Assembly (NCBI RefSeq): GCF_021155765.1
Contig: NC_060112.1
Coordinates: 7,626,001 to 7,690,000, forward strand
Source of the DNA: Diprion similis
Taxonomy: Eukaryota > Arthropoda > Insecta > Hymenoptera > Diprionidae
Direction of reading: 5' to 3'
Length of the DNA: 64,000 bases
Shown here: piece by piece, positions 37,107-64,000 of the stretch
How the letters are laid out: the number at the start of each line of letters is the position of its first letter
How positions within the stretch are numbered: the first letter of the stretch is position 1
Notes under the pieces: model-generated
The model's database searches: none
What the model was told of the DNA's origin: nothing
The model's input: only the letters and a program-made list of their open reading frames with translations
Position numbers and translations under genes: made by a program

Positions 37107-37960
37107 AATTTATGAGATAATTTATCTTGTGAATTCGGTGAAATATGTTAAAAAATAACATAATAAATTACAAAAGCTCGAAACATCAGATAGCTGGTTA
37201 AGGATCGAGATTCGTATGAAGATAGTTCAGTGTATGACTTTTGATCTAGTATATCTGATGATTCGTGCTGTTGTGATTAATTATTTGATGTTAGTACATA
37301 CATATTGTCCTATTTACACAATGAATCATGTAATAATTTACACGTAAATTTTACTCATTACGTTTCAAAGTTGGATAATTCATCATTTTCAGAAGAGTTG
37401 ATTCGGTGCGAACAACGGAACGGATGTTACGGCCGAGGAGACATGTAAGTTGCCCTGGGTTTTTGAAAAGATGGGGAGGCCGCCGCGACATGACAAATTC
37501 ATAGCTACGAAGTTTCAGTTTCAGTTTAGTTCCAGTTTGGTCAATATCCTGATTTGAGTGAAGGTGTGTGGTAGTGAGTGTGTTGCATGCTTTGACAAGT
37601 TGTCGAATGAAATTGGAGTAGAAAAGACAAAGGAATGCTAAAAACAATTCTGCATAACATCGGAGTTCTGACTATGTACATGAAACACCTATAAGAAATA
37701 TTACGAACAATAGTTCTTGTCGTCGTAGTATGTGGTATTGTTTACGTGAAATCCTGCGGACAGGTGTAATGCAAGAAGGATGATTAATGCACGTCTGCAT
37801 CATGACGAGAATACGATATGTGTGACGCATATGTATGTCAACTACTGGCTGCAGCTTGTATTGTAATAATAATGAATAAATGAAATTTTTTGGACCTTTC
37901 TTCGAGTGATGTTCCTACAGGGTAGTGAATGCTTGTTCTAGATTCGTTGAGAGGGGATGA
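37107..37960. other. Spacer between the solitary monomer and the satellite array
   Basis: AT-rich unique-looking DNA. A minus-strand ORF of 98 codons at 37351-37647 has no family resemblance, no splice context and an ordinary composition for chance; it is not called as a gene. Confidence 0.5.
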
Positions 37961-38235
37961 GTCCAGTAGGGTAATGCAAATCCATTTGAGGTCGGAAAAT
38001 TTTTTCCCCAAAATTGCTGGAAAATTATGTTAACCCGTTTGAGAGTGCTGTTAACGATTCTTTGATGCACCGTTCTGACGAGATTGTACGGAAGAAATCG
38101 GTGGGGCGCAGTCCGAAAACGTTGGGAAAAACGGAAGAAAAGTCACGGCCAAATAACTTGGGATTTTCACCGTCATTTCTCTGCTGTTGGTCCTACGCTT
38201 ATTTTGATGTGTTTTGTGAGTTCCTGGGGGTCGGA
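37961..38235 (+). repeat. Diverged, internally deleted edge monomer of the satellite array
   Basis: The first unit of the array. It matches the consensus from GTCCAGTAGGGTAATGCAAA onward, but lacks about 30 bp after TTAACCC (the stretch that normally reads CTTTGGATTTTTGGCG and on to GACGAT), and carries many substitutions (for example GGGGCGCAGTCCGAAAACG for TAACCGCAGTCCCAATACG). The next unit (from about 38236) is already close to consensus. Confidence 0.8.
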
Positions 38236-41200
38236 TTACTCTAGAGATGGCCATACGAATTGATTTCGAAACGAGGAATTTTCAGCCCCAAAAATGAACA
38301 AAAAAGTAAGGCTAACCCCTTTGGATTTTTGGCGAAAATTTCGACGATTTTGAAAGGTGCTGCAATCAATTCGATGAGGCACCATTGCGACGTAATTTTG
38401 CAAGAGGAATCGATTAACCGCAGTCCCAATACGCTGCGAGCGATACCTGAAAAGTTACGGCCGAAAAACTCATGATTTTCATCGTCATTTCTCTGCTGCT
38501 GGTCCCACACTGTTTTTGATGTGTTTTCTGAGTTCCTGGTGGTCCAATTACTCTAGAAGAGATCATACAAATCGATTCCGAGACGAGAAATTTTCGGCTC
38601 CGAAAATGACCAAAAAAGTAAGGCCAACCCCTTTGGATTTTTGGCGAAAATTTCGACGATTTTGAGAAGTGCTGCAATCAATTCAATGAGGCACTGTTCC
38701 GACGTAATTTTGCAAGAGAAATCGATTAACCGCAGTCCCAATACGCTGCGAGCGATAGCTGAGAAGTTACGGCCGAAAAACTCATGATTTTCATCGTCAT
38801 TTCTCTGCTGCTGGTCCCACATTAGTTTTGATGTGTTTTCTGAGTTCCTGGTGGTCCAATTACTCTAGAAGAGGTCATACAAATTGATTCCGAGACGAGA
38901 AATTTTCGGCTCCGAAAATGACTAAAAAAGTAAGACTAACCCCTTTGGATTTTTGGCGAAAATTTCGACGATTTTAAGAAGTGCTGCAATCAATTCAATG
39001 AGGCACTATTCCGACGTAATTTTGCAAAAGGAATCGATTAACCGCAGTCCCAATACGCTGCGAGCGATAGCTGAGAAGTTACGGCCGAAAAACTCATGAT
39101 TTTCATCGTCATTTCTCTGCTGCTGGTCCCACACTGTTTTTGATGTGTTTTCTGAGTTCCTGGTGGTCCAATTACTCTAGAAGAGGTCATACAAATTGAT
39201 TCCGAGACGAGAAATTTTCGGCTCCGAAAATGACCAAAAAAGTAAGGCTAACCCCTTTGGATTTTTACCGAAAATTTCGACGATTTTGAGAAGAGCTGCA
39301 ATCAATTCAATGAGGCACTATTCCGACGTAATTTTGCGAAAGGAATCGATTAACCGCAGTCCCAATACGCTGCGAGCGATAGCTGAAAAGTTACGGCCAA
39401 ACAACTCATGATTTTCATCGTCATTTCTCTGCTGCTGGTCCCACGCTGTTTCTGTTGTGTTTTCTGAGTTCCTGGTGGTCCAATTACTCTAGAAATGGTC
39501 ATAAAAATCGATTCCGAAAAGAGAATTATTCGGCTCCGAAAATAACCAAAAAAGTAAGGCTAACCCCTTTGGATTTTTGGCGAAAATTTCGACGATTTTG
39601 AGAAGTGCTGCAATCAATTCAATGAGGCACCGTTCCGACGTAATTTTGCAAGAGGAATCGATTAACTGCAGTCCCAATACGCTGCGAGCGATAGCTGAAA
39701 AGTTACGGCCGAAAAACTCATAATTTTCATCGTCATTTCTCTGCTGCTGGTCCCACATTGTTTTTGATGTGTTTTCTGAGTTCCTGGTGGTCCAATTACT
39801 CTAGAAGAGGTCATACAAATTGATTCCGAGACGAGAAATTTTCGGCTCCGAAAATGACCGAAAAGGAAGGCTAACCCCTTTGGATTTTTGGCGAAAATTT
39901 CGACGATTTTAAGAAGTGCTGCAATCAATTCAATGAGGCACCATTGCGACGTAATTTTGCAAGAGGAATCGATTAACCGCAGTCCCAATACGCTGCGAGC
40001 GATACCTGAAAAGTTACGGCCGGAAAACTCATGATTTTCATCGTCATTTCTCTGCTGCTGGTCCCACACTGTTTTTGATGTGTTTTCTGAGTTCCTGGTG
40101 GTCCAATTACTCTAGGAGAGGTCATACAAATTGATTCCGAGACGAGAAATTTTCGGCTCCGAAAATGACCAAAAAAGTAAGGCTAACCCCTTTGGATTTT
40201 TGGCGAAAATTTCGACGATTTTGAGAAGTGCTGCAATCAATTCAATGAGGCACTATTCCGACGTAATTTTGCAAGAGGAATCGATTAACCGCAGTCCCAA
40301 TACGCTGCGAGCGGTAGCTGAAAAGTTACGGCCGAAAAACTCATGATTTTCATCGTCATTTCTCTGCTGCTGGTCCCACACTGTTTTTGATGTGTTTTCT
40401 GAGTTCCTGGTGGTCCAATTACTCTAGAAGAGGTCATACAAATCGATTCCGAGACGAGAAATATTCGGCTCCGAAAATGACCAAAAAAGTAAGGCTAACC
40501 CCTTTGGATTTTTGGCGAAAATTTCGACGATTTTGAGAAGTGCTGCAATCAATTCAATGAGGCACTATTCCGACGTAATTTTGCAAGGGGAATCGATTAA
40601 CCGCAGTCCCAATACGCTGCGAGCGATAGCTGAAAAGGTACGGCCGAAAAACTCATGATTTTCATCGTCATTTCTCTGCTGCTGGTCCCACACTGTTTTT
40701 GATATGTTTTCTGAGTTCCTGGTGGTCCAATTACTCTAGGAGAGGTCATACAAATCGATTCCGAGACGAGAAATTTTCGGCTCCAAAAATGACCAAAAAA
40801 GTAAGGCTAACCCCTTTGGATTTTTGGCGAGAATTTCGACGATTTTGAGAAGTGCTGCAATCAATTCAATGAGGCACTATTCCGACGTAATTTTGCTAGA
40901 GGAATCGATTAACCGCAGTCCCCATACGCTGCGAGCGATAGCTGAAAAGTTACGGCCGAAAAACTGATGATTTTCATCGTCATTTCTCTGCTGCTGGTCC
41001 CACACTGTTTTTGATGTGTTTTCTGAGTTCCTGGTGGTCCAATTACTCTAGAAGAGGTCATACAAATTGATTCCGAGACGAGAAATTTTCGGCTCCGAAA
41101 ATGACCGAAAAGGAAGGCTAACCCCTTTGGATTTTTGGCGAAAATTTCGACGATTTTAAGAAGTGCTGCAATCAATTCAATGAGGCACCATTGCGACGTA

Positions 41201-41344
41201 ATTTTGCAAGAGGAATCGATTAACCGCAGTCCCAATACGCTGCGAGCGATACCTGAAAAGTTACGGCCGAAAAACTCATGATTTTCATCGTCATTTCTCT
41301 GCTGCTGGTCCCACACTGTTTTTGATGTGTTTTCTGAGTTCCTG

Positions 41345-44300
41345 GTGGTCCAATTACTCTAGAAGAGGTCATACAAATTGATTCCGAGACGAGAAATTTT
41401 CGGCTCCGAGAATGACCAAAAAAGTAAGGCTAACCCCTTTGGATTTTTGGCGAAAATTTCGACGATTTTGAGGAGTGCTGCAATCAATTCAATGAGGCAC
41501 TATTCCGACGTAATTTTGCTAGAGGAATCGATTAACCGCAGTCCCAATACGCTGCGAGCGATAGCTGAAAAGTTACGGCCGAAAAACTCATGATTTTCAT
41601 CGTCATTTCTCTGCTGCTGGTCCCACACTGTTTTTGATGTGTTTTCTGAGTTCCTGGTGGTCCAATTACTCTAGAAATGATCATACGAATCGATTCCGAG
41701 ACGAGAAATTTTCAGCTCCGAAAATGACCAAAAAAGTAAGGCTAACCCCTTTGGATTTTTGGCGAAAATTTCGACGATTTTGAGGAGTGCTGCAATCAAT
41801 CTAATGAGGCACTATTCCGACGTAATTTTGCAAGAGGAATCGATTAACCGCAGTCCCAATACGCTGCGAGCGATAGCTGAAAAGTTACGGCCGAAAAACT
41901 CATGATTTTCATCGTCATTTCTCTGCTGCTGGTCCCACACTGTTTTTGATGTGTTTTCTGAGTTCCTGGTGGTCCAATTACTCTAGAAGAGGTCATACAA
42001 ATCGATTCCGAGACGAGAAATTTTCGGCTCCGAAAATGACCAAAAAAGTAAGGCTAACCCCTTTGGATTTTTGGCGAAAATTTCGACGATTTTGAGAAGT
42101 GCTGCAATCAATTCAATGAGGCACTATTCCGACGTAATTTTGCAAGAGGAATCGATTAACCGCAGTCCCAATACGCTGCGAGCGATAGCTGAAAAGTTAC
42201 GGCCGAAAAACTCATGATTTTCATCGTCATTTCTCTGCTGCTGGTCCCACACTGTTTTTGATATGTTTTCTGAGTTCCTGGTGGTCCAATTACTCGAGAA
42301 GAGGTCACACAAATTGATTCCGAGACGAGAATATTTCGGCTCCGAAAATGACCAAAAAAGTAAGGCTAACCCCTTTGGATTTTTGGCGAAAATTTCGACG
42401 ATTTTGAGAAGTGCTGCAATCAATTCAATGAGGCACTATTCCGACGTAATTTTGCAAGAGGAATCGATTAACCGCAGTCCCAATACGCTGCGAGCGATAG
42501 CTGAAAAGTTACGGCCGAAAAACTCATGATTTTCATCGTCATTTCTCTGCTGCTGGTCCCACACTGTTTTTGATATGTTTTCTGAGTTCCTGGTGGTCCA
42601 ATTACTCGAGAAGAGGTCATACAAATTGATTCCGAGACGAGAAATTTTCGGCTCCGAAAATGACCAAAAAAGTAAGGCTAACCCCTTTGGATTTTCGGCG
42701 AAAATTTCGACGATTTTGAGAAGTGCTGCAATCAATTCAATAAGGCACTGTCCCGACGTAATTTTGCTAGAGGAATCGATTAACCGCAGTCCCAATACGC
42801 TGCGAGCGATAGCTGAAAAGTTACGGCCGAAAAACTCATGATTTTCATCGTCATTTCTCTGCTGCTGGTCCCACACTGTTTTTGATGTGTTCTCTGAGTT
42901 CCTGGTGGTCCAATTACTCTGGAAGAGGTCATACAAATCGATTCCGAGACGAGAAATTCTCGGCTCTGAAAATGACCAAAAAAGTAAGGCTAACCCCTTT
43001 GGATTTTTGGCGAAAATTTTGACGATTTTGAGAAGTGCTGCAATCAATTCGATGAGGCACTATTCCGACGTAATTTTGCAAGAGGAATCGATTAACCACA
43101 GTCCCAATACGCTGCGAGCGATAGCTGAAAAGTGACGGCCAAAAAACTCATGATTTTCATCGTCATTTCTCTGCTGCTGGTCCCACACTGTTTTTGATGT
43201 GTTTTCTGAGTTCCTGGTGGTCCAATTACTCTAGAAATGATCATACAAATCGATTGCGAGACGAGAAATTTTCAGCTCCGAAAATGACCAAGAAAGTAAG
43301 GCTAACCCCTTTGAATTTTTGGCGAAAATTTCGACGTTTTTGAGAAGTGCTGCAATCAATCTAATGAGGCACTATTCCGACGTAATTTTGCAAAAGGAAT
43401 CGATTAACCGCAGTCCCAATACGCTGCGAGCGATAGCTGAAAAGTTACGGCCGGAAAACTCATGATTTTCATCGTCATTTCTCTGCTGCTGGTCCCACAC
43501 TGTTTTTGATGTGTTTTCTGAGTTCCTGGTGGTCGAATCACTCTAGAAATGATCATACGAATCGATTCTGAGACGAGAAATTTTAGGCTCCGAAAATGAC
43601 CAAAAAAGTAAGGTTAACCCCTTTGGATTTTTGGCGTCAATTTCGACGATTTTGAGAAGTGCTGCAATCAATCCAATGAGGCACTATTCCGACGTAATTT
43701 TGCAAGAGGAATCGATTAACCGCAGTCCCAATACGCTGCGAGCGATAGCTGAAAAGTTACGGCCGAAAAACTCATGATTTTCATCGTCATTTCTCTGCTG
43801 CTGGTCCCACATTGTTTTTGAAGTGTTTTCTGAGTTCCTGGTGGTCCAATTACTCTAGAAGAGGTCATACAAATTGATTCCGAGACGAGAAATTTTCGGC
43901 TCCGAAAATGACCAAAAAAGTAAGGCTAACCCCTTTGGATTTTTGGCGAAAATTTCGACGATTTTGAGAAGTGCTGCAATCAATTCAATGAGGCACTATT
44001 CCGACGTAATTTTGCTAGAGGAATCGATTAACCGCAGTCCCAATACGCTGCGAGCGATAGCTGAAAAGTTACGGCCGAAAAACTCATGATTTTCATCGTC
44101 ATTTCTCTGCTGCTGGTCCCACACTGTTTTTGATGTGTTTTCTGAGTTCCTGGTGGTCCAATTACTCTAGAAGAGGTCATACAAATCGATTCCGAGACGA
44201 GAAATTTTCAGCTCCGAAAATGACCAAAAAAGTAAGGCTAACCCCTTTGGATTTTTGGCGAAAATTTCGACGATTTTGAGAAGTGCTGCAATCAATTCAA

Positions 44301-47300
44301 TGAGGCACTATTCCGACGTAATTTTGCAAGAGGAATCGATTAACCGCAGTCCCAATACGCTGCGAGCGGTAGCTGAAAAGTTACGGCCGAAAAACTCATG
44401 ATTTTCATCGTCATTTCTCTGCTGCTGGTCCCACACTGTTTTTGATGTGTTTTCTGAGTTCCTGGTGGTCCAATTACTCTAGAAGAGGTCATACAAATCG
44501 ATTCCGAGACGAGAAATATTCGGCTCCGAAAATGACCAAAAAAGTAAGGCTAACCCCTTTGGATTTTTGGCGAAAATTTCGACGATTTTGAGAAGTGCTG
44601 CAATCAATTCAATGAGGCACTATTCCGACGTAATTTTGCAAGAGGAATCGATTAACCGCAGTCCCAATACGCTGCGAGCGATAGCTGAAAAGGTACGGCC
44701 GAAAAACTCATGATTTTCATCGTCATTTCTCTGCTGCTGGTCCCACATTGTTTTTGAAGTGTTTTCTGAGTTCCTGGTGGTCCAATTACTCTAGAAGAGG
44801 TCATACAAATTGATTCCGAGACGAGAAATTTTCGGCTCCGAGAATGACCAAAAAAGTAAGGCTAACCCCTTTGGATTTTTGGCGAAAATTTCGACGATTT
44901 TGAGGAGTGCTGCAATCAATTCAATGAGGCACTATTCCGACGTAATTTTGCTAGAGGAATCGATTAACCGCAGTCCCAATACGCTGCGAGCGATAGCTGA
45001 AAAGTTACGGCCGAAAAACTCATGATTTTCATCGTCATTTCTCTGCTGCTGGTCCCACACTGTTTTTGATGTGTTTTCTGAGTTCCTGGTGGTCCAATTA
45101 CTCTAGAAATGATCATACGAATCGATTCCGAGACGAGAAATTTTCAGCTCCGAAAATGACCAAAAAAGTAAGGCTAACCCCTTTGGATTTTTGGCGAAAA
45201 TTTCGACGATTTTGAGGAGTGCTGCAATCAATCTAATGAGGCACTATTCCGACGTAATTTTGCAAGAGGAATCGATTAACCGCAGTCCCAATACGCTGCG
45301 AGCGATAGCTGAAAAGTTACGGCCGAAAAACTCATGATTTTCATCGTCATTTCTCTGCTGCTGGTCCCACACTGTTTTTGATGTGTTTTCTGAGTTCCTG
45401 GTGGTCCAATTACTCTAGAAGAGGTCATACAAATCGATTCCGAGACGAGAAATTTTCGGCTCCGAAAATGACCAAAAAAGTAAGGCTAACCCCTTTGGAT
45501 TTTTGGCGAAAATTTCGACGATTTTGAGAAGTGCTGCAATCAATTCAATGAGGCACTATTCCGACGTAATTTTGCAAGAGGAATCGATTAACCGCAGTCC
45601 CAATACGCTGCGAGCGATAGCTGAAAAGTTACGGCCGAAAAACTCATGATTTTCATCGTCATTTCTCTGCTGCTGGTCCCACACTGTTTTTGATATGTTT
45701 TCTGAGTTCCTGGTGGTCCAATTACTCGAGAAGAGGTCATACAAATTGATTCCGAGACGAGAATATTTCGGCTCCGAAAATGACCAAAAAAGTAAGGCTA
45801 ACCCCTTTGGATTTTTGGCGAAAATTTCGACGATTTTGAGAAGTGCTGCAATCAATTCAATAAGGCACTATTCCGACGTAATTTTGCAAGAGGAATCGAT
45901 TAACCGCAGTCCCAATACGCTGCGAGCGATAGCTGAAAAGTTACGGCCGAAAAACTCATGATTTTCATCGTCATTTCTCTGCTGCTGGTCCCACATTGTT
46001 TTTGAAGTGTTTTCTGAGTTCCTGGTGGTCCAATTACTCTAGAAGAGGTCATACAAATTGATTCCGAGACGAGAAATTTTCGGCTCCGAGAATGACCAAA
46101 AAAGTAAGGCTAACCCCTTTGGATTTTTGGCGAAAATTTCGACGATTTTGAGGAGTGCTGCAATCAATTCAATGAGGCACTATTCCGACGTAATTTTGCT
46201 AGAGGAATCGATTAACCGCAGTCCCAATACGCTGCGAGCGATAGCTGAAAAGTTACGGCCGAAAAACTCATGATTTTCATCGTCATTTCTCTGCTGCTGG
46301 TCCCACACTGTTTTTGATGTGTTTTCTGAGTTCCTGGTGGTCCAATTACTCTAGAAATGATCATACGAATCGATTCCGAGACGAGAAATTTTCAGCTCCG
46401 AAAATGACCAAAAAAGTAAGGCTAACCCCTTTGGATTTTTGGCGAAAATTTCGACGATTTTGAGGAGTGCTGCAATCAATCTAATGAGGCACTATTCCGA
46501 CGTAATTTTGCAAGAGGAATCGATTAACCGCAGTCCCAATACGCTGCGAGCGATAGCTGAAAAGTTACGGCCGAAAAACTCATGATTTTCATCGTCATTT
46601 CTCTGCTGCTGGTCCCACACTGTTTTTGATGTGTTTTCTGAGTTCCTGGTGGTCCAATTACTCTAGAAGAGGTCATACAAATCGATTCCGAGACGAGAAA
46701 TTTTCGGCTCCGAAAATGACCAAAAAAGTAAGGCTAACCCCTTTGGATTTTTGGCGAAAATTTCGACGATTTTGAGAAGTGCTGCAATCAATTCAATGAG
46801 GCACTATTCCGACGTAATTTTGCAAGAGGAATCGATTAACCGCAGTCCCAATACGCTGCGAGCGATAGCTGAAAAGTTACGGCCGAAAAACTCATGATTT
46901 TCATCGTCATTTCTCTGCTGCTGGTCCCACACTGTTTTTGATATGTTTTCTGAGTTCCTGGTGGTCCAATTACTCGAGAAGAGGTCACACAAATTGATTC
47001 CGAGACGAGAATATTTCGGCTCCGAAAATGACCAAAAAAGTAAGGCTAACCCCTTTGGATTTTTGGCGAAAATTTCGACGATTTTGAGAAGTGCTGCAAT
47101 CAATTCAATGAGGCACTATTCCGACGTAATTTTGCAAGAGGAATCGATTAACCGCAGTCCCAATACGCTGCGAGCGATAGCTGAAAAGTTACGGCCGAAA
47201 AACTCATGATTTTCATCGTCATTTCTCTGCTGCTGGTCCCACACTGTTTTTGATATGTTTTCTGAGTTCCTGGTGGTCCAATTACTCGAGAAGAGGTCAT

Positions 47301-48620
47301 ACAAATTGATTCCGAGACGAGAAATTTTCGGCTCCGAAAATGACCAAAAAAGTAAGGCTAACCCCTTTGGATTTTCGGCGAAAATTTCGACGATTTTGAG
47401 AAGTGCTGCAATCAATTCAATAAGGCACTGTCCCGACGTAATTTTGCTAGAGGAATCGATTAACCGCAGTCCCAATACGCTGCGAGCGATAGCTGAAAAG
47501 TTACGGCCGAAAAACTCATGATTTTCATCGTCATTTCTCTGCTGCTGGTCCCACACTGTTTTTGATGTGTTCTCTGAGTTCCTGGTGGTCCAATTACTCT
47601 GGAAGAGGTCATACAAATCGATTCCGAGACGAGAAATTCTCGGCTCTGAAAATGACCAAAAAAGTAAGGCTAACCCCTTTGGATTTTTGGCGAAAATTTT
47701 GACGATTTTGAGAAGTGCTGCAATCAATTCGATGAGGCACTATTCCGACGTAATTTTGCAAGAGGAATCGATTAACCACAGTCCCAATACGCTGCGAGCG
47801 ATAGCTGAAAAGTGACGGCCAAAAAACTCATGATTTTCATCGTCATTTCTCTGCTGCTGGTCCCACACTGTTTTTGATGTGTTTTCTGAGTTCCTGGTGG
47901 TCCAATTACTCTAGAAATGATCATACAAATCGATTGCGAGACGAGAAATTTTCAGCTCCGAAAATGACCAAGAAAGTAAGGCTAACCCCTTTGAATTTTT
48001 GGCGAAAATTTCGACGTTTTTGAGAAGTGCTGCAATCAATCTAATGAGGCACTATTCCGACGTAATTTTGCAAAAGGAATCGATTAACCGCAGTCCCAAT
48101 ACGCTGCGAGCGATAGCTGAAAAGTTACGGCCGGAAAACTCATGATTTTCATCGTCATTTCTCTGCTGCTGGTCCCACACTGTTTTTGATGTGTTTTCTG
48201 AGTTCCTGGTGGTCGAATCACTCTAGAAATGATCATACGAATCGATTCTGAGACGAGAAATTTTAGGCTCCGAAAATGACCAAAAAAGTAAGGTTAACCC
48301 CTTTGGATTTTTGGCGTCAATTTCGACGATTTTGAGAAGTGCTGCAATCAATCCAATGAGGCACTATTCCGACGTAATTTTGCAAGAGGAATCGATTAAC
48401 CGCAGTCCCAATACGCTGCGAGCGATAGCTGAAAAGTTACGGCCGAAAAACTCATGATTTTCATCGTCATTTCTCTGCTGCTGGTCCCACATTGTTTTTG
48501 AAGTGTTTTCTGAGTTCCTGGTGGTCCAATTACTCTAGAAGAGGTCATACAAATTGATTCCGAGACGAGAAATTTTCGGCTCCGAAAATGACCAAAAAAG
48601 TAAGGCTAACCCCTTTGGAT
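41345..48620 (+). repeat. Nested multi-monomer duplications in the array (15-, 11- and 4-monomer offsets)
   Basis: About 41.35-43.94 kb is repeated at about 46.03-48.62 kb, offset 4680 bp (15 monomers), with shared private variants: CACACAAATTGATTCC at 42305/46985, GGCGTCAATTTCG at 43633/48313 and the ATTCTCGGCTCTGAAAATG unit. The part 41.38-42.53 kb also recurs at 44.81-45.96 kb (offset 3432, 11 monomers), which in turn is 1248 bp (4 monomers) from the copy at 46.06 kb. After about 48.62 kb the sequence switches to match 39.2-40.3 kb instead (offset 9358 bp, which is 30 monomers minus the two 1-bp deletions between). Confidence 0.85.
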
Positions 48621-49730
48621 TTTTACCGAAAATTTCGACGATTTTGAGAAGAGCTGCAATCAATTCAATGAGGCACTATTCCGACGTAATTTTGCTAGAG
48701 GAATCGATTAACCGCAGTCCCAATACGCTGCGAGCCATAGCTGAAAAGTTACGGCCAAACAACTCATGATTTTCATCGTCATTTCTCTGCTGCTGGTCCC
48801 ACGCTGTTTCTGTTGTGTTTTCTGAGTTCCTGGTGGTCCAATTACTCTAGAAATGGTCATAAAAATCGATCCCGAAAAGAGAATTATTCGGCTCCGAAAA
48901 TAACCAAAAAAGTAAGGCTAACCCCTTTGGATTTTTGGCGAAAATTTCGACGATTTTGAGAAGTGCTGCAATCAATTCAATGAGGCACCGTTCCGACGTA
49001 ATTTTGCAAGAGGAATCGATTAACTGCAGTCCCAATACGCTGCGAGCGATAGCTGAAAAGTTACGGCCGAAAAACTCATAATTTTCATCGTCATTTCTCT
49101 GCTGCTGATCCCAGATTGTTTTTGATGTGTTTTCTGAGTTCCTGGTGGTCCAATTACTCTAGAAGAGGTCATACAAATTGATTCCGAAACGAGAAATTTT
49201 CGGCTCCGAAAATGACCGAAAAGGAAGGCTAACCCCTTTGGATTTTTGGCGAAAATTTCGACGATTTTAAGAAGTGCTGCAATCAATCCAATGAGGCACC
49301 ATTGCGACGTAATTTTGCAAGAGGAATCGATTAACCGCAGTCCCAATACGCTGCTAGCGATACCTGAAAAGTTACGGCCGAAAAACTCATGATTTTCATC
49401 GTCATTTCTCTGCTGCTGGTCCCACACTGTTTTTGATGTGTTTTCTAAGTTCCTGGTGGTCCAATTACTCTAGAAGAGGTCATACAAATTGATTCCGAGA
49501 CGAGAAATTTTCGGCTCCGAAAATGACCAAAAAAGTAAGGCTAACCCCTTTGGATTTTTGGCGAAAATTTCGACGATTTTGAGAAGTGCTGCAATCAATT
49601 CAATGAGGCACTATTCCGACGTAATTTTGCAAGAGGAATCGATTAACCGGAGTCCCAATACGCTGCGAGCGATAGCTGAAAAGTTACGGCCGAAAAACTC
49701 ATGATTTTCATCGTCATTTCTCTGCTGCTG

Positions 49731-52700
49731 GTCCCACTCTGTTTTTGATGTGTTTTCTGAGTTCCTGGTGGTCCAATTACTCTAGGAGAGGTCATACAAA
49801 TCGATTCCGAGACGAGAAATTTTCGGCTCCAAAAATGACCAAAAAAGTAAGGCTAACCCCTTTGGATTTTTGGCGAAAATTTCGACGATTTTGAGAAGTG
49901 CTGCAATCAATTCAATGGGGCACTATTCCGACGTAATTTTGCTAGAGGAATCGATTAACCGCAGTCCCAATACGCTGCGAGCGATAGCTGAAAAGTTACG
50001 GCCGAAAAACTCATGATTTTCATCGTCATTTCTCTGCTGCTGGTCCCACACTGTTTTTGATGTGTTTTCTGAGTTCCTGGTGGTCCAATTACTCTAGAAG
50101 AGGTCATACAAATCGATTCCGAGACGAGAAATTTTCAGCTCCGAAAATGACCAAAAAAGTAAGGCTAACCCCTTTGGATTTTTGGCGAAAATTTCGACGA
50201 TTTTGAGAAGTGCTGCAATCAATTCAATGAGGCACTATTCCGACGTAATTTTGCTAGAGGAATCGATTAACCGCAGTCCCAATACGCTGCGAGCGATAGC
50301 TGAAAAGTTACGGCCGAAAAACTCATGATTTTCATCGTCATTTCTCTGCTGCTGGTCCCACACTGTTTTTGATGTGTTTTCTGAATTCCTGGTGGTCCAA
50401 TTACTCTAGAAATGATCATACGAATCGATTCCGAGACGAGAAATTTTCAGCTCCGAAAATGACCAAAAAAGTAAGGCTAACCCCTTTGGATTTTTGGCGA
50501 AAATTTCGACGATTTTGAGAAGTGCTGCAATCAATCTAATGAGGCACTATTCCGACGTAATTTTGCAAGAGGAATCGATTAACCGCAGTCCCAATACGCT
50601 GCGAGCGATAGCTGAAAAGTTACGGCCGAAAAACTCATGATTTTCATCGTCATTTCTCTGCTGCTGGTCCCACACTGTTTTTGATGTGTTTTCTGAGTTC
50701 CTGGTGGTCCAATTACTCTAGAAGAGGTCATACAGATCGATTCCGAGACGAGAAATTTTCGGCTCCGAAAATGACCAAAAAAGTAAGGCTAACCCCTTTG
50801 GATTTTTGGCGAAAATTTCGACGATTTTGAGAAGTGCTGCAATCAATTCAATGAGGCACTATTCCGACGTAATTTTGCAAGAGGAATCGATTAACCGCAG
50901 TCCCAATACGCTGCGAGCGATAGCTGAAAAGTTACGGCCGAAAAACTCATGATTTTCATCGTCATTTCTCTGCTGCTGGTCCCACTCTGTTTTTGATGTG
51001 TTTTCTGAGTTCCTGGTGGTCCAATTACTCTAGGAGAGGTCATACAAATCGATTCCGAGACGAGAAATTTTCGGCTCCAAAAATGACCAAAAAAGTAAGG
51101 CTAACCCCTTTGGATTTTTGGCGAAAATTTCGACGATTTTGAGAAGTGCTGCAATCAATTCAATGAGGCACTATTCCGACGTAATTTTGCTAGAGGAATC
51201 GATTAACCGCAGTCCCAATACGCTGCGAGCGATAGCTGAAAAGTTACGGCCGAAAAACTCATGATTTTCATCGTCATTTCTCTGCTGCTGGTCCCACACT
51301 GTTTTTGATATGTTTTCTGAGTTCCTGGTGGTCCAATTACTCGAGAAGAGGTCATACAAATTGATTCCGAGACGAGAAATTTTCGGCTCCGAAAATGACC
51401 AAAAAAGTAAGGCTAACCCCTTTGGATTTTTGGCGAAAATTTCGACGATTTTGAGAAGTGCTGCAATCAATTCAATGAGGCACTATTCCGACGTAATTTT
51501 GCAAGAGGAATCGATTAACCGCAGTCCCAATACGCTGCGAGCGATAGCTGAAAAGTTACGGCCGAAAAACTCAGATTTTCATCGTCATTTCTCTGCTGCT
51601 GGTCCCACATTGTTTTTGAAGTGTTTTCTGAGTTCCTGGTGGTCCAATTACTCTAGAAGAGGTCATACAAATTGATTCCGAGACGAGAAATTTTCGGCTC
51701 CGAAAATGACCAAAAAAGTAAGGCTAACCCCTTTGGATTTTTGGCGAAAATTTCGACGATTTTGAGAAGTGCTGCAATCAATTCAATGAGGCACTATTCC
51801 GACGTAATTTTGCAAGAGGAATCGATTAACCGCAGTCCCAATACGCTGCGAGCGATAGCTAAAAAGTTACGGCCGAAAAACTCATGATTTTCATCGTCAT
51901 TTCTCTGCTGCTGGTCCCACACTGTTTTTGATATGTTTTCTGAGTTCCTGGTGGTCCAATTACTCGAGAAGAGGTCATACAAATTGATTCCGAGACGAGA
52001 AATTTTCGGCTCCGAAAATGACCGAAAAAGTAAGGCTAACCCCTTTGGATTTTTGGCGAAAATTTCGACGATTTTGAGAAGTGCTGCAATCAATTCAATG
52101 AGGCACTATTCCGACGTAATTTTGCAAGAGGAATCGATTAACCGCAGTCCCAATACGCTGCGAGCGATAGCTGAAAAGTTACGGCCGAAAAACTCATGAT
52201 TTTCATCGTCATTTCTCTGCTGCTGGTCCCACACTGTTTTTGATATGTTTTCTGAGTTCCTGGTGGTCCAATTACTCGAGAAGAGGTCATACAAATTGAT
52301 TCCGAGACGAGAAATTTTCGGCTCCGAAAATGACCAAAAAAGTAAGGCTAACCCCTTCGGATTTTTGGCGAAAATTTCGACGATTTTGAGAAGTGCTGCA
52401 ATCAATTCAATGAGGCACTATTCCGACGTAATTTTGCAAGAGGAATCGATTAACCGCAGTCCCAATACGCTGCGAGCGATAGCTGAAAAGTTACGGCCGA
52501 AAAACTCATGATTTTCATCGTCATTTCTCTGCTGCTGGTCCCACACTGTTTTTGATATGTTTTCTGAGTTCCTGGTGGTCCAATTACTCGAGAAGAGGTC
52601 ACACAAATTGATTCCGAGACGAGAATATTTCGGCTCCGAAAATGACCAAAAAAGTAAGGCTAACCCCTTTGGATTTTTGGCGAAAATTTCGACGATTTTG

Positions 52701-55700
52701 AGAAGTGCTGCAATCAATTCAATGAGGCACTATTCCGACGTAATTTTGCAAGAGGAATCGATTAACCGCAGTCCCAATACGCTGCGAGCGATAGCTGAAA
52801 AGTTACGGCCGAAAAACTCATGATTTTCATCGTCATTTCTCTGCTGCTGGTCCCACACTGTTTTTGATATGTTTTCTGAGTTCCTGGTGGTCCAATTACT
52901 CGAGAAGAGGTCATACAAATTGATTCCGAGACGAGAAATTTTCGGCTCCGAAAATGACCAAAAAAGTAAGGCTAACCCCTTTGGATTTTTGGCGAAAATT
53001 TCGACGATTTTGAGAAGTGCTGCAATCAATTCAATGAGGCACTATTCCGACGTAATTTTGCAAGAGGAATCGATTAACCGCAGTCCCAATACGCTGCGAG
53101 CGATAGCTGAAAAGTTACGGCCGAAAAACTCATGATTTTCATCGTCATTTCTCTGCTGCTGGTCCCACTCTGTTTTTGATGTGTTTTCTGAGTTCCTGGT
53201 GGTCCAATTACTCTAGGAGAGGTCATACAAATCGATTCCGAGACGAGAAATTTTCGGCTCCAAAAATGACCAAAAAAGTAAGGCTAACCCCTTTGGATTT
53301 TTGGCGAAAATTTCGACGATTTTGAGAAGTGCTGCAATCAATTCAATGGGGCACTATTCCGACGTAATTTTGCTAGAGGAATCGATTAACCGCAGTCCCA
53401 ATACGCTGCGAGCGATAGCTGAAAAGTTACGGCCGAAAAACTCATGATTTTCATCGTCATTTCTCTGCTGCTGGTCCCACACTGTTTTTGATGTGTTTTC
53501 TGAGTTCCTGGTGGTCCAATTACTCTAGAAGAGGTCATACAAATCGATTCCGAGACGAGAAATTTTCAGCTCCGAAAATGACCAAAAAAGTAAGGCTAAC
53601 CCCTTTGGATTTTTGGCGAAAATTTCGACGATTTTGAGAAGTGCTGCAATCAATTCAATGAGGCACTATTCCGACGTAATTTTGCTAGAGGAATCGATTA
53701 ACCGCAGTCCCAATACGCTGCGAGCGATAGCTGAAAAGTTACGGCCGAAAAACTCATGATTTTCATCGTCATTTCTCTGCTGCTGGTCCCACACTGTTTT
53801 TGATGTGTTTTCTGAATTCCTGGTGGTCCAATTACTCTAGAAATGATCATACGAATCGATTCCGAGACGAGAAATTTTCAGCTCCGAAAATGACCAAAAA
53901 AGTAAGGCTAACCCCTTTGGATTTTTGGCGAAAATTTCGACGATTTTGAGAAGTGCTGCAATCAATCTAATGAGGCACTATTCCGACGTAATTTTGCAAG
54001 AGGAATCGATTAACCGCAGTCCCAATACGCTGCGAGCGATAGCTGAAAAGTTACGGCCGAAAAACTCATGATTTTCATCGTCATTTCTCTGCTGCTGGTC
54101 CCACACTGTTTTTGATGTGTTTTCTGAGTTCCTGGTGGTCCAATTACTCTAGAAGAGGTCATACAGATCGATTCCGAGACGAGAAATTTTCGGCTCCGAA
54201 AATGACCAAAAAAGTAAGGCTAACCCCTTTGGATTTTTGGCGAAAATTTCGACGATTTTGAGAAGTGCTGCAATCAATTCAATGAGGCACTATTCCGACG
54301 TAATTTTGCAAGAGGAATCGATTAACCGCAGTCCCAATACGCTGCGAGCGATAGCTGAAAAGTTACGGCCGAAAAACTCATGATTTTCATCGTCATTTCT
54401 CTGCTGCTGGTCCCACTCTGTTTTTGATGTGTTTTCTGAGTTCCTGGTGGTCCAATTACTCTAGGAGAGGTCATACAAATCGATTCCGAGACGAGAAATT
54501 TTCGGCTCCAAAAATGACCAAAAAAGTAAGGCTAACCCCTTTGGATTTTTGGCGAAAATTTCGACGATTTTGAGAAGTGCTGCAATCAATTCAATGAGGC
54601 ACTATTCCGACGTAATTTTGCTAGAGGAATCGATTAACCGCAGTCCCAATACGCTGCGAGCGATAGCTGAAAAGTTACGGCCGAAAAACTCATGATTTTC
54701 ATCGTCATTTCTCTGCTGCTGGTCCCACACTGTTTTTGATATGTTTTCTGAGTTCCTGGTGGTCCAATTACTCGAGAAGAGGTCATACAAATTGATTCCG
54801 AGACGAGAAATTTTCGGCTCCGAAAATGACCAAAAAAGTAAGGCTAACCCCTTTGGATTTTTGGCGAAAATTTCGACGATTTTGAGAAGTGCTGCAATCA
54901 ATTCAATGAGGCACTATTCCGACGTAATTTTGCAAGAGGAATCGATTAACCGCAGTCCCAATACGCTGCGAGCGATAGCTGAAAAGTTACGGCCGAAAAA
55001 CTCAGATTTTCATCGTCATTTCTCTGCTGCTGGTCCCACATTGTTTTTGAAGTGTTTTCTGAGTTCCTGGTGGTCCAATTACTCTAGAAGAGGTCATACA
55101 AATTGATTCCGAGACGAGAAATTTTCGGCTCCGAAAATGACCAAAAAAGTAAGGCTAACCCCTTTGGATTTTTGGCGAAAATTTCGACGATTTTGAGAAG
55201 TGCTGCAATCAATTCAATGAGGCACTATTCCGACGTAATTTTGCAAGAGGAATCGATTAACCGCAGTCCCAATACGCTGCGAGCGATAGCTAAAAAGTTA
55301 CGGCCGAAAAACTCATGATTTTCATCGTCATTTCTCTGCTGCTGGTCCCACACTGTTTTTGATATGTTTTCTGAGTTCCTGGTGGTCCAATTACTCGAGA
55401 AGAGGTCATACAAATTGATTCCGAGACGAGAAATTTTCGGCTCCGAAAATGACCGAAAAAGTAAGGCTAACCCCTTTGGATTTTTGGCGAAAATTTCGAC
55501 GATTTTGAGAAGTGCTGCAATCAATTCAATGAGGCACTATTCCGACGTAATTTTGCAAGAGGAATCGATTAACCGCAGTCCCAATACGCTGCGAGCGATA
55601 GCTGAAAAGTTACGGCCGAAAAACTCATGATTTTCATCGTCATTTCTCTGCTGCTGGTCCCACACTGTTTTTGATATGTTTTCTGAGTTCCTGGTGGTCC

Positions 55701-55930
55701 AATTACTCGAGAAGAGGTCATACAAATTGATTCCGAGACGAGAAATTTTCGGCTCCGAAAATGACCAAAAAAGTAAGGCTAACCCCTTCGGATTTTTGGC
55801 GAAAATTTCGACGATTTTGAGAAGTGCTGCAATCAATTCAATGAGGCACTATTCCGACGTAATTTTGCAAGAGGAATCGATTAACCGCAGTCCCAATACG
55901 CTGCGAGCGATAGCTGAAAAGTTACGGCCG
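49731..55930 (+). repeat. Tandem higher-order duplication, 11 monomers (3431 bp)
   Basis: 49731-53161 is followed directly by a second copy, 53162 to about 55930. Private markers recur at exactly 3431 bp: GTCCCACTCTG (49731/53162), TTCAATGGGG (49911/53342), CTGAATTCCTGG (50381/53812), CATACAGATCG (about 50729/54160) and a 1-bp deletion giving AACTCAGATTTTC (about 51568/54999). The 3431-bp period is 11 x 312 minus that single base. The second copy breaks off near 55.93 kb, where the next monomer carries GTTTTTGGAGTG. Confidence 0.9.
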
Positions 55931-58900
55931 AAAAACTCATGATTTTCATCGTCATTTCTCTGCTGCTGGTCCCACATTGTTTTTGGAGTGTTTTCTGAGT
56001 TCCTGGTGGTCCAATTACTCTAGAAGAGGTCATACAAATTGATTCCGAGACGAGAAATTTTCGGCTCCGAAAATGACCAAAAAAGTAAGGCTAACCCCTT
56101 TGGATTTTTGGCGAAAATTTCGACGATTTTGAGAAGTGCTGCAATCAATTCAATGAGGCACTGTTCCGACGTAATTTTGCTAGGGGAATCGATTAACCGC
56201 AGTCCCAATACGCTGCGAGCGATAGCTGAAAAGTTACGGCCGAAAAACTCATGATTTTCATCGTCATTTCTCTGCTGCTGGTCCCACACTGTTTTTGATG
56301 TGTTTTCTGAGTTCCTGGTGGTCCAATTACTCTAGAAGAGGTCATACAAATTGATTCCGAGACGAGAAATTTTCGGCTTCGAAAATGACCAAAAAAGTAA
56401 GGCTAACCCCTTTGGATTTTTGGTGAAAATTTCGACGATTTTGAGAAGTGCTGCAATCAATTCGATGAGGCACCATTCCGACGTAATTTTGCAAAAGAAA
56501 TCGATTAACCGCAGTCCCAATACGCTGCGAGCGATAGCTGAGAAGTTACGGCCGAAAAACTCATGATTTTCATCGTCATTCCTCTGCTGCTGGTCCCACA
56601 CTGTTTTTGATGTGTTTTCTGAGTTCCTGGTGGTCCAATTACTCTAGAAATGATCATACAAATCGATTGCGAGACGAGAAATTTTCAGCTCCGAAAATGA
56701 CCAAGAAAGTAAGGCTAACCCCTTTGGATTTTTGGCGAAAATTTCGACGTTTTTGAGAAGTGCTGCAATCAATCTAATGAGGCACTATTCCGACGTAATT
56801 TTGCAAAAGGAATCGATTAACCGCAGTCCCAATACGCTGCGAGCGATAGCTGAAAAGTTACGGCCGGAAAACTCATGATTTTCATCGTCATTTCTCTGCT
56901 GCTGATCCCACACTGTTTTTGATGTGTTTTCTGAGTTCCTGGTGGTCCAATTACTCTAGAAATGATCATACGAATCGATTCCGAGACGAGAAATTTTCGG
57001 CTCCGAAAATGACCAAAAAAGTAAGGTTAACCCCTTTGGATTTTTGGCGAAAATTTCGACGATTTTGAGAAGTGCTGCAATCAATCTAATGAGGCACTAT
57101 TCCGACGTAATTTTGCAAGAGGAATCGATTAACCGCAGTCCCAATACGCTGCGAGCGATAGCTGAAAAGATACGGCCGAAAAACTCATGATTTCCATCGT
57201 CATTCCTCTGCTGCTGGTCCCACATTGTTTTTGAAGTGTTTTCTGAGTTCCTGGTGGTCCAATTACTCTAGAAGAGGTCATACAAATTGATTCCGAGACG
57301 AGAAATTTTCGGCTCCGAAAATGACCAAAAAAGTAAGGCTAACCCCTTTGGACTTTTGGCGAAGATTTCGACGATTTTGAGAAGTGCTGCAATCAATTCA
57401 ATGAGGCACTATTCCGACGTAATTTTGCAAGAGGAATCGATTAACCGCAGTCCCAATACGCTGCGAGCGATAGCTGAAAAGTTACGGCCGAAAAACTCAT
57501 GATTTTCATCGTCATTTCTCTGCTGCTGGTCCCACACTGTTTTTGATGTGTTTTCTGAGTACCTGGTGGTCCAATTACTCTAGAAGAGGTCATACAAATC
57601 GATTCCGAGACGAGAAATTCTCGTCTCCGAAAATGACCAAAAAAGTAAGGCTAACCCCTTTGGATTTTTGGCGAAAATTTCGACGATTTTGAGAAGTGCT
57701 GCAATCAATTCAATGAGGCACTATTCCGACGTAATTTTGCAAGAGGAATCGATTAACCGCAGTCCTAATACGCTGCGAGCGATAGCTGAAAAGTTACGGC
57801 CGAAAAACTCATGATTTTCATCGTCATTTCTCTGCTGCTGGTCCCACACTGTTTTTGATGTGTTTTCTGAGTTCCTGGTGGTCCAATTACTCTAGAAGAG
57901 GTCATACAAATCGATTCCGAGACGAGAAATTCTCGGCTCCGAAAATGACCAAAAAAGTAAGGCTAACCCCTTTGGATTTTTGGCGGAAATTTCGACGATT
58001 TTGAGAAGTGCTGCAATCAATTCAATGAGGCACTATTCCGACGTAATTTTGCAAGAGGAATCAATTAACCGCAGTCCCAATACGCTGCGAGCGATAGCTG
58101 AAAAGTTACGGCCGAAAAACTCATGATTTTCATCGTCATTTCTCTGCTGCTGGTCCCACACTGTTTTTGATGTGTTTTCTGAGTTCCTGGTGGTCCAATT
58201 ACTCGAGAAGAGGTCATACAAATTGATTCCGAGACGAGAAATTTTCGGCTCCGAAAATGACCACAAAAGTAAGGCTAACCCCTTTGGATTTTTGGCGAAA
58301 ATTTCGACGATTTTGAGAAGTGCTGCAATCAATTCAATGAGGCACTATTCCGACGTAATTTTGCAAGAGGAATCGATTAACCGCAGCCCCAATACGCTGC
58401 GAGCGATAGCTGAAAAGTTACGGCCGGAAAACTCATGATTTTCATCGTCATTTCTCTGCTGCTGGTCCCACACTGTTTTTGATGTGTTTTCTGAGTTCCT
58501 GGTGGTCCAATTACTCTAGAAGAGGTCATACAAATCGATTCCGAGACGAGGAATTTTCGGCTCCGAAAATGACCAAAAAAGTAAGGCTAACCCCTTTGGA
58601 TTTTTGGCGAAAATTTCGACGATTTTGAGAAGTGCTGCAATCAATTCAATGAGGCACTATTCCGACGTAATTTTGCAAGAGGAATCGATTAACCGCAGTC
58701 CCAATACGCTGCGAGCGATAGCTGAAAAGTTACGGCCGAAAAACTCATGATTTTCATCGTCATTTCTCTGCTGCTGGTCCCACACTGTTTTCGATGTGTT
58801 TTCTGAGTTCCTGGTGGTCCAATGACTTTAGAAATGATCATACAAATCGATTGCGAGACGAGAAATTTTCAGCTCCGAAAATGACTAAAAAAGTAAGGCT

Positions 58901-60039
58901 AACCCCTTTGGATTTTTGGCGAAAATTTCGACGATTTTGAGAAGTGCTGCAATCAATCTAATAAGGCACTATTCCGACGTAATTTTGCAAAAGGAATCGA
59001 TTAACCGCAGTCCCAATACGCTGCGAGCGATAGCTGAAAAGTTACGGCCGAAAAACTCATGATTTTCATCGTCATTTCTCTGCTGCTGGTCCCACACTGT
59101 TTTTGATGTGTTTTCTGAGTTCCTGGTGGTCCAATTACTCTAGTAGAGGTCATACAAATCGATTCCGAGACGAGAAATTTTCAACTCCGAAAATGACCAA
59201 AAAAGTAAGGCTAACCCCTTTGGATTTTTGGCGAAAATTTCGACGATTTTGAGGAGTGCTGCAATCAATTCAATGAGGCACTATTCCGACGTAATTTTGC
59301 AAGAGGAATCGATTAACCGCAGTCCTAATACGCTGCGAGCGATAGCTGAAAAGTTACGGCCGAAAAACTCATGATTTTCATCGTCATTTCTCTGCTGCTG
59401 GTCCCACACTGTTTTTGATGTGTTTTCTGAGTTCCTGGTGGTCCAATTACTCTGGAAGAGGTCATACAAATCGATTCCGAGACGAGAAATTCTCGGCTCT
59501 GAAAATGACCAAAAAAGTAAGGCTAACCCCTTTGGATTTTTGGCGAAAATTTCGACGATTTTGAGAAGTGCTGCAATCAATTCAATGAGGCACTATTCCG
59601 ACGTAATTTTGCAAGAGGAATCGATTGACCGCAGTCCCAATACGCTGCGAGCGATAGCTGAAAAGTTACGGCCGAAAAACTCATGGTTTTCATCGTCATT
59701 TCTCTGCTGCTGGTCCCACACTGTTTTTGATGTGTTTTCTGAGTTCCTGGTGGTCCAATTACTCTAGAAATGATCATACGAATCGATTCCGAGACGAGAA
59801 ATTTTCAGCTCCGAAAATGACCAAAAAAGTAAGGCTAACCCCTTTGGATTTTTGGCGAAAATTTCGACGATTTTGAGAAGTGCTGCAATCAATTCAATGA
59901 GGCACTATTTCGACGTAATTTTGCAAGAGGAATCGATTAACCGCAGTCCCAATACGCTGCGAGCGATAGCTGAAAAGTTACGGCCGAAAAACTCATGATT
60001 TTCATCGTCATTTCTCTGCTGCTGGTCCCACACTGTTTT

Positions 60040-63000
60040 TGATGTGTTTTCTGAGTTCCTGGTGGTCCAATTACTCTAGAAATGATCATACAAATCGATT
60101 GCGAGACGAGAAATTTTCAGCTCCGAAAATGACCAAAAAAGTAAGGCTAACCCCTTTGGATTTTTGGCGAAAATTTCGACGATTTTGAGAAGTGCTGCAA
60201 TCAATCTAATAAGGCACTATTCCGACGTAATTTTGCAAAAGGAATCGATTAACCGCAGTCCCAATACGCTGCGAGCGATAGCTGAAAAGTTACGGCCGAA
60301 AAACTCATGATTTTCATCGTCATTTCTCTGCTGCTGGTCCCACACTGTTTTTGATGTGTTTTCTGAGTTCCTGGTGGTCCAATTACTCTAGAAGAGGTCA
60401 TACAAATCGATTCCGAGACGAGAAATTTTCGGCTCCGAAAATGACCAAAAAAGTAAGGCTAACCCCTTTGGATTTTTGGCGAAAATTTCGACGATTTTGA
60501 GAAGTGCTGCAATCAATTCAATGAGGCACTATTCCGACGTAATTTTGCAAGAGGAATCGATTAACCGCAGTCCCAATACGCTGCGAGCGATAGCTGAAAA
60601 GTTACGGCCGAAAAACTCATGAATTTCATCGTCATTTCTCTGCTGCTGGTCCCACACTGTTTTTGATGTGTTTTCTGAGTTCCTGGTGGTCCAATTACTC
60701 TAGAAGAGGTCATACAAATCGATTCCGAGACGAGAAATTTTCAGCTCCAAAAATGACCAAAAAAGTAAGGCTAACCCCTTTGGATTTTTGGCGAAAATTT
60801 CGACGATTTTGAGAAGTGCAACAATCAATTCAATGAGGCACTATTCCGACGTAATTTTGCAAGAGGAATCGATTAACCGCAGTCCCAATACGCTGCAAGC
60901 GGTAGCTGAAAAGTTACGGCCGAAAAACTCATGATTTTCATCGTCATTTCTCTGCTGCTGGTCCCACATTGTTTTTGAAGTGTTTTCTGAGTTCCTGGTG
61001 GTCCAATTACTCTAGAAGAGGTCATACAAATTGATTATGAGACGAGAAATTTTCGGCTCCGAAAATGACCAAAAAAGTAAGGCTAACCCCTTTGGATTTT
61101 TGGCGAAAATTTCGACGATTTTGAGGAGTGCTGCAATCAATTCAATGAGGCACTATTCCGACGTAATTTTGCAAGAGGAATCGATTAACCGCAGTCCCAA
61201 TACGCTGCGAGCGATAGCTGAAAAGTTACGGCCGAAAAACTCATGATTTTCATCGTCATTTCTCTGCTGCTGTTCCCACATTGTTTTTGAAGTGTTTTCT
61301 GAGTTCCTGGAGGTCCAATTACTCTAGAAGAGGTCATACAAATTGATTCCGAGACGAGAAATTTTCGGCTCCGAAAATGACCAAAAAAGTAAGGCTAACC
61401 CCTTTGGATTTTTGGCGAAAATTTCGACGATTTTAAGGAGTGCTGCAATCAATTCAATGAGGCACTATTCCGACGTAATTTTGCTAGAGGAATCGATTAA
61501 CCGCAGTCCCAATACGCTGGGAGCGATAGCTGAAAAGTTACGGCCGAAAAACTCATGATTTTCATCGTCATTTCTCTGCTGCTGGTCCCACACTGTTTTT
61601 GATGTGTTTTCTGAGTTCCTGGTGGTCCAATCACTCTAGAAATGATCATACGAATCGATTCCGAGACGAGAAATTTTCAGCTCCGAAAATGACCAAAAAA
61701 GTAAGGCTAACCCCTTTGGATTTTTGGCGAAAATTTCGACAATTTTGAGAAGTGCTGCAATCAATCTAATGAGGCACTATTCCGACGTAATTTTGCAAGA
61801 GGAATCGATTAACCGCAGTCCCAATACGCTGCGAGCGATAGCTGAAAAGTTACGGCCGAAAAACATATGATTTTCATCGTCATTTCTCTGCTGCTGGTCC
61901 CACACTGTTTTTGATGTGTTTTCTGAGTTCCTGGTGGTCCAATTACTCTAGAGGAGGTCATCCAAATCGATTCCGAGACGAGAAATTTTCGGCTCCGAAA
62001 ATGACCAAAAAAGTAAGGCTAACCCCTTTGGATTTTTGGCGAAAATTTCGACGATTTTGAGAAGTGCTGCAATCAATTCAATGAGGCACTATTCCGACAT
62101 AATTTTGCAAGAGGAATCGATTAACCGCAGTCCCAATACGCTGCGAGCGATAGCTGAAAAGTTACGGCCGAAAAACTCATGATTTTCATCGTCATTTCTC
62201 TGCTGCTGGTCCCACACTGTTTTTGATGTGTTTTCTGAGTTCCTGGTGGTCCAATTACTCTAGAAATGATCATACAAATCGATTGCGAGACGAGAAATTT
62301 TCAGCTCCGAAAATGACCAAAAAAGTAAGGCTAACCCCTTTGGATTTTTGGCGAAAATTTCGACGATTTTGAGAAGTGCTGCAATCAATCTAATAAGGCA
62401 CTATTCCGACGTAATTTTGCAAAAGGAATCGATTAACCGCAGTCCCAATACGCTGCGAGCGATAGCTGAAAAGTTACGGCCGAAAAACTCATGATTTTCA
62501 TCGTCATTTCTCTGCTGCTGGTCCCACACTGTTTTTGATGTGTTTTCTGAGTTCCTGGTGGTCCAATTACTCTAGAAGAGGTCATACAAATCGATTCCGA
62601 GACGAGAAATTTTCGGCTCCGAAAATGACCAAAAAAGTAAGGCTAACCCCTTTGGATTTTTGGCGAAAATTTCGACGATTTTGAGAAGTGCTGCAATCAA
62701 TTCAATGAGGCACTATTCCGACGTAATTTTGCAAGAGGAATCAATTAACCGCAGTCCCAATACGCTGCGAGCGATAGCTGAAAAGTTACGGCCGAAAAAC
62801 TCATGAATTTCATCGTCATTTCTCTGCTGCTGGTCCCACACTGTTTTTGATGTGTTTTCTGAGTTCCTGGTGGTCCAATTACTCTAGAAGAGGTCATACA
62901 AATCGATTCCGAGACGAGAAATTTTCAGCTCCAAAAATGACCAAAAAAGTAAGGCTAACCCCTTTGGATTTTTGGCGAAAATTTCGACGATTTTGAGAAG

Positions 63001-64000
63001 TGCAACAATCAATTCAATGAGGCACTATTCCGACGTAATTTTGCAAGAGGAATCGATTAACCGCAGTCCCAATACGCTGCAAGCGGTAGCTGAAAAGTTA
63101 CGGCCGAAAAACTCATGATTTTCATCGTCATTTCTCTGCTGCTGGTCCCACATTGTTTTTGAAGTGTTTTCTGAGTTCCTGGTGGTCCAATTACTCTAGA
63201 AGAGGTCATACAAATTGATTATGAGACGAGAAATTTTCGGCTCCGAAAATGACCAAAAAAGTAAGGCTAACCCCTTTGGATTTTTGGCGAAAATTTCGAC
63301 GATTTTGAGGAGTGCTGCAATCAATTCAATGAGGCACTATTCCGACGTAATTTTGCAAGAGGAATCGATTAACCGCAGTCCCAATACGCTGCGAGCGATA
63401 GCTGAAAAGTTACGGCCGAAAAACTCATGATTTTCATCGTCATTTCTCTGCTGCTGTTCCCACATTGTTTTTGAAGTGTTTTCTGAGTTCCTGGAGGTCC
63501 AATTACTCTAGAAGAGGTCATACAAATTGATTCCGAGACGAGAAATTTTCGGCTCCGAAAATGACCAAAAAAGTAAGGCTAACCCCTTTGGATTTTTGGC
63601 GAAAATTTCGACGATTTTCAGAAGTGCTGCAATCAATTCAATGAGGCACTATTCCGACGTAATTTTGCTAGAGGAATCGATTAACCGCAGTCCCAATACG
63701 CTGGGAGCGATAGCTGAAAAGTTACGGCCGAAAAACTCATGATTTTCATCGTCATTTCTCTGCTGCTGGTCCCACACTGTTTTTGATGTGTTTTCTGAGT
63801 TCCTGGTGGTCCAATCACTCTAGAAATGATCATACGAATCGATTCCGAGACGAGAAATTTTCAGCTCCGAAAATGACCAAAAAAGTAAGGCTAACCCCTT
63901 TGGATTTTTGGCGAAAATTTCGACGATTTTGAGAAGTGCTGCAATCAATCTAATGAGGCACTATTCCGACGTAATTTTGCAAGAGGAATCGATTAACCGC
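60040..64000 (+). repeat. Tandem higher-order duplication, 7 monomers (2184 bp), truncated by the window end
   Basis: Private variants recur 2184 bp apart: CATGAATTTCATCG (60619/62803), GTGCAACAATCAATTC (60816/63000), GATTATGAGACG (61033/63217), CTGTTCCCAC (61270/63454), and CGCTGGGAGCG (61513/63697). The left boundary is near 59.95-60.05 kb; the second copy continues past the edge. The copies are almost identical, indicating a recent event. Confidence 0.88.

Follow-up and report, generated by a model that had tools for sequence, protein, structure and literature searches.

In Diprion pini, satellite DNA falling into four subfamilies was reportedly described by Rouleux-Bonnin et al. in 1996 (said to be in Eur J Biochem 238:752-759). 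This 1996 work is cited in a passage of PMC13192020, and in an excerpt of PMC2220036 the D. pini satellites are cited as being transcribed from both strands. According to passages of PMC10048060 and PMC5844308, there is ample documentation of satellites in the euchromatin of insects. In this study, a window of 64,000 nucleotides from Diprion similis (C8:7626001-7690000; assembly of 269,008,206 bases in 60 contigs) holding a 312-bp tandem repeat was analyzed. Among the papers listed in literature searches on satellites of sawflies, Hymenoptera, Neodiprion, and D. pini, none described this repeat. The 312-bp family and the D. pini subfamilies are alike in being satellite DNA of the same genus, and the family could be the same as one of those reported in 1996.

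TRF and monomer comparison identified one clean array on the forward strand of the window at 38137-64000, with a period of 312, 82.9 copies, 96% matches, and 0% indels, in agreement with the long head-to-tail array of the preliminary description. The start given there, 37961, was approximately 80-180 bases too early: a diverged partial monomer (38038-38136, forward strand) forms the left edge, as indicated by a BLAST match of the monomer to 38038-38449 (82% identity), and the clean repeats follow from 38137. The array runs past the window end, being clean to about C8:7717473 and decayed by about C8:7718150. It ends about 28 kb outside the window; its total length is 53-54 kb, approximately twice the part inside, and about 171 monomers make it up. 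Monomer length was nearly constant, as had been proposed, with 312 bp in 162 and 311 bp in 8 of the 170 monomers of the whole array (window and continuation). A 15-base anchor had 77 exact copies on the forward strand of the window and none on the reverse.

The mean pairwise identity of monomers in the window array was 0.963, and 115 of the 170 monomers were distinct. Six block duplications of 9-17 monomers, with identities of 0.997-0.999, were found in this array; after shuffling of the monomer order, the longest duplicated run was 6 (100 shuffles). No regular higher-order repeat was detected among 81 window monomers, as no lag from 1 to 44 was prominent (means 0.963-0.970). The first and last full monomers were 0.888 and 0.901 identical to the consensus, runs of ten along the array averaged 0.967-0.988, and both edges graded into other sequence. 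Long satellite arrays are hard to assemble, and assembly could in principle have inflated or invented this one. That explanation has an almost negligible probability, being opposed by the number of distinct monomers, by the graded edges, and by the presence of similar arrays elsewhere in the genome.

The array is a real, well-formed satellite, ordinary in kind. This identity, already suggested by the preliminary description, was borne out by a long near-identical tandem array that is non-coding, present in high copy number, and mostly more alike within than between arrays. The unit length of exactly 104 codons, to which attention had been drawn, is a coincidence: every one of the six reading frames of the consensus contains stops, and coding by such a unit was ruled out. 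The proposed length of about two nucleosomes is a matter of arithmetic. A dimer of a shorter unit was rejected because no internal direct repeat of at least 10 bases was present, just matches of 8-10 bases. An RNA-gene origin was also rejected: the single Rfam match in window positions 36601-39100 was at chance level (E 1.5; 19.9 bits vs a cut-off of 96), none there was at gathering score, and no match was found in locus L055 (C2:10116001-10119500). In the consensuses of 11 arrays, with some monomers counted twice (overlap among L001, L002, and L006 and between L007 and L008), the longest invariant run was 17 bases, inside the range of the shuffles (95th percentile, 18); therefore, nothing is claimed for this 17-mer as a conserved protein-binding box.

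A 17-base monomer piece occurred 21,328 times in the genome (10,893 forward and 10,435 reverse). For a 34-base piece the count was 6,975, of which 3,535 were on the forward and 3,440 on the reverse strand; reversed-pattern controls for both pieces gave zero. At 312 bp each, 21,328 copies correspond to 6.7 Mb, about 2.5% of the 269-Mb genome. Since the 17-mer was changed in at most 7 of 83 window monomers, a similar rate in the other arrays would bring the family to about 7.3 Mb. Among the sites listed, at least 106 places on 10 of the 14 chromosomes were recognized (61 forward and 45 reverse), grouped by eye at kilobase positions and including some single sites that may be lone copies. The sites behind these places included 100 of 6,975, 100 of 449, 100 of 443, 100 of 283, and 100 of 110; two site lists were complete (29/29 and 41/41). 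No site lay on C5, C7, C13, or C14 among the sites listed, the two complete lists included. Minus-strand sites near C1:118150 appeared among the 34-base and not among the 17-base sites listed, so that absence there is uninformative. Array extents among the sites listed were between about 10 and about 57 kb. In some arrays of C2, C3, C4, and C10 the site spacing fitted multiples of about 341-342, and L055 has one monomer of 342 bp.

For 20 of the 60 contigs the start was inspected; of these, C1-C14 measured 10.9-28.0 Mb and the other six 2.5-250 kb. In a Pfam scan of nine reading frames flanking the window array, four scored above the cut-off, one (protein kinase) fell just below it, and four had no match. 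Those above the cut-off were a P-type cation ATPase, an AAA lid domain, and a leucine-rich repeat to the left and otopetrin to the right, the otopetrin reading frame lying within about 6 kb past the right end of the array. With genes on both sides, the array ending after 53-54 kb, and the same family at 106 listed places, the array is not the edge of pericentromeric heterochromatin; of the two settings that had been offered for it, the other, a euchromatic satellite block, is the one that fits. Nor was the family confined to one pericentromeric region per chromosome, as up to 18 listed places were found on C4. Window positions 22178-25342 on the reverse strand hold an uninterrupted reading frame of 1,054 residues with the P-type cation ATPase domains, so this is an intronless gene or a retrocopy, beside genes that look split.

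Other repeats occupied the chromosome ends. Telomeric TTAGG repeats stand at the beginning of C1, C2, C3, and C13 and at the end of C1, C2, C3, C5, C6, C9, C10, and C12; the start of C4 reads N, as do 7,500 of the 10,000 bases at the end of C7. Different satellites, of 279 and 148 bp, were present at several ends. The former was found in L014 (C6:1-2000), L016 (C8:1-2000), L036 (end of C8), L020 (C12:1-2000), L023 (C15), and L025 (C17), and its occurrence at chromosome ends and in small contigs makes it a candidate centromeric or end-linked satellite. The 148-bp satellite was found in L022 (C14:1-2000), L039 (end of C11), L041 (end of C13), and L024 (C16); C11, C13, and C14 carry it at one end and TTAGG repeats at the other sampled end. 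Repeats of 123 bp and about 138 bp formed subtelomeric blocks between TTAGG stretches at the chromosome ends L029, L031, L033, L034, L037, and L038. An 11-bp unit, AACCTGACCTA or GGTCAGGTTTA, which resembles a TTAGG variant, formed arrays near chromosome ends (L015, 698-1601; L032, 7278-8755; L040, 7346-7520; L042, 7150-7768).

Monomers of different arrays were compared with overlapping loci counted once and L059 included; L057 gave no full monomer, several arrays were represented by 1-4 monomers, and L001-L008 had been chosen as best matches to the window monomer, a bias towards similar arrays. Identity within arrays was 0.964 for C8 (166 monomers), 0.963 for C10:6.95 (23), 0.964 for C2:9.6 (26), and 0.974 for C6:7.9 (20), and in small samples 0.966 for C1:0.97 (4) and 0.958 for C4:14.68 (2). 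Identity between arrays was 0.813-0.913 over all 55 pairs, compared with 0.963-0.974 within five sampled arrays. There were two exceptions: C1:0.12-0.16 (17 monomers) was 0.879 within, about equal to its 0.880 vs C4:14.68, and C2:10.12 (three monomers) was 0.836 within, below its identity to several other arrays. The arrays C1:0.12-0.16, C1:2.92, and C4:14.68 had higher identity among themselves (0.871-0.901) than with the remaining arrays, indicating that similarity does not track chromosomes. The higher identity within than between arrays, together with the block duplications at 99.7-99.9%, points to local amplification by unequal exchange.

Nine array edges were examined, and six of them decay (both edges of the window array, L050, L051, L052, and L055). 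The other three, L049, L054, and L056, are sharp, and such edges without decay, like the many places and the two orientations, might be expected if ready-made arrays had been carried to new places as circular DNA or in segmental duplications instead of growing in place. In the five sampled arrays, monomers resemble those of their own array much more than those of the others; any spread of this kind must then have been followed by long local homogenization, and we consider it distinctly unlikely.

Both edges of the window array are flanked by an older, non-satellite module, A, of about 400-460 bp. The left copy (37440-37900, forward strand) was 61% identical to the right copy (C8:7718150-7718545) over 212 aligned positions. 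Further left of the array, an old diverged monomer identified by sequence match (36817-37051, forward strand) is separated from module A by a palindromic, MITE-like dispersed element (37054-37395; self-inverted match of 64%). Matches to this palindromic element, at 64-80% identity, occurred at many other places in the genome, and a single place was often matched on both strands. When the right copy of module A served as a DNA query, 37 candidates gave 43 matched stretches, including the query itself and two with E >0.1, showing that A is dispersed. Three matches (C2:9644648, C4:21465705, and C6:7915578) have the same orientation as listed satellite sites and lie 3-18 kb downstream of them.

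Eight copies of A were read in seven stretches, a non-random sample in which L057 and L058 were taken from the better matches and L059 for a nearby monomer site. The monomer (M) was found upstream of A in 8/8 copies and downstream in 7/8, one of the latter being just a 61-base match. Between the upstream monomer and A lay the palindromic element in one copy and another module, B, in two. The M, B, and A pieces shared orientation when both strands were searched, and B of L059 was 61% identical to B of L055 over 404 positions. As a control, 56 kb of other sequence was searched, and no match to A or M was found. L055, with two A modules, two tandem B copies of ~170 bp, and monomers of 312, 313, and 342 bp, is the stretch in which the old composite repeat is seen most completely. 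M and A thus form such a repeat, and, as M precedes A in 8/8 copies, the arrays probably grew from an old composite repeat that was already dispersed.

The M-(B)-A composite might itself be a mobile element of the non-autonomous kind, in which case the arrays would be expansions of tandem repeats inside it. Module A is dispersed, the M-A order recurs at separate loci, and short tandem arrays inside transposable elements may seed satellites, according to an excerpt of PMC10048060. Against this, comparison of flanks, with A loci read over short stretches, revealed neither common element ends nor target-site duplications; nothing but M and A was common to the array flanks, and the array edges fall at differing monomer phases. 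We regard the mobile element as doubtful.

In our judgment, it is highly probable that the 312-bp family is a non-coding satellite of the chromosome arms, in which a composite repeat was dispersed and M was then amplified and homogenized in place. An old composite repeat, consisting of M and in places of modules B and A, would have been scattered over the chromosomes. Many of these sites would later have seen a run of M amplified and homogenized locally, with unequal exchange accompanied by gene conversion as the most likely process. Most sampled arrays hold their own variants, and old monomers with module A persist beside some of them. We infer unequal exchange as the mechanism and dispersal as the earlier event, and the arrays would be explicable without any cellular function. 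A more specific version is a real if minor possibility: an undescribed old M-B-A element may have seeded at least about a hundred places in the arms, its 312-bp segment growing into arrays of tens of kilobases at many of them. If this is true, satellites would have been born many times in parallel from one seed within a single genome.

Although the kind of sequence is already well known, the 312-bp arrays are an unusually clear example of it. Most long satellite arrays are buried in heterochromatin that assembles poorly, whereas many 312-bp arrays stand in assembled chromosome arms. Some have both edges and older related copies alongside, so that growth, edge decay, and homogenization can be compared across sites in one genome.

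The repeat-based holocentromere of Rhynchospora has many satellite arrays along each chromosome. The same is described for Luzula in a passage of PMC11538461, and the layout of the 312-bp arrays along the chromosomes resembles that of such plant holocentromeres. The arrays might accordingly have a chromosome-wide job, as scattered centromere units or as piRNA or heterochromatin sources near genes, for which the transcription from both strands said of D. pini satellites (excerpt of PMC2220036) could also speak. We consider any such job very unlikely. An acrocentric chromosome is described in two diprionids in part of PMC11354594, implying a localized centromere; four chromosomes are without a site in two complete lists, and the longest invariant monomer run does not exceed the shuffles. 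Plant holocentromere arrays bind centromeric histone, which the 312-bp arrays are not known to do, and a localized centromere is likely in diprionids. The 312-bp family is comparable to TCAST of Tribolium castaneum, likewise an insect satellite dispersed in euchromatin near genes (passages of PMC5844308 and PMC10048060). The euchromatic repeats of TCAST are preferentially single, according to the same passage of PMC5844308, whereas some of the sampled 312-bp places hold arrays tens of kilobases long. The 1.688 satellite of Drosophila melanogaster likewise has euchromatic copies near genes and weaker homogenization between distant arrays; its euchromatic arrays are mostly of up to six repeats (excerpt of PMC10048060), in contrast to about 171 in the window array.
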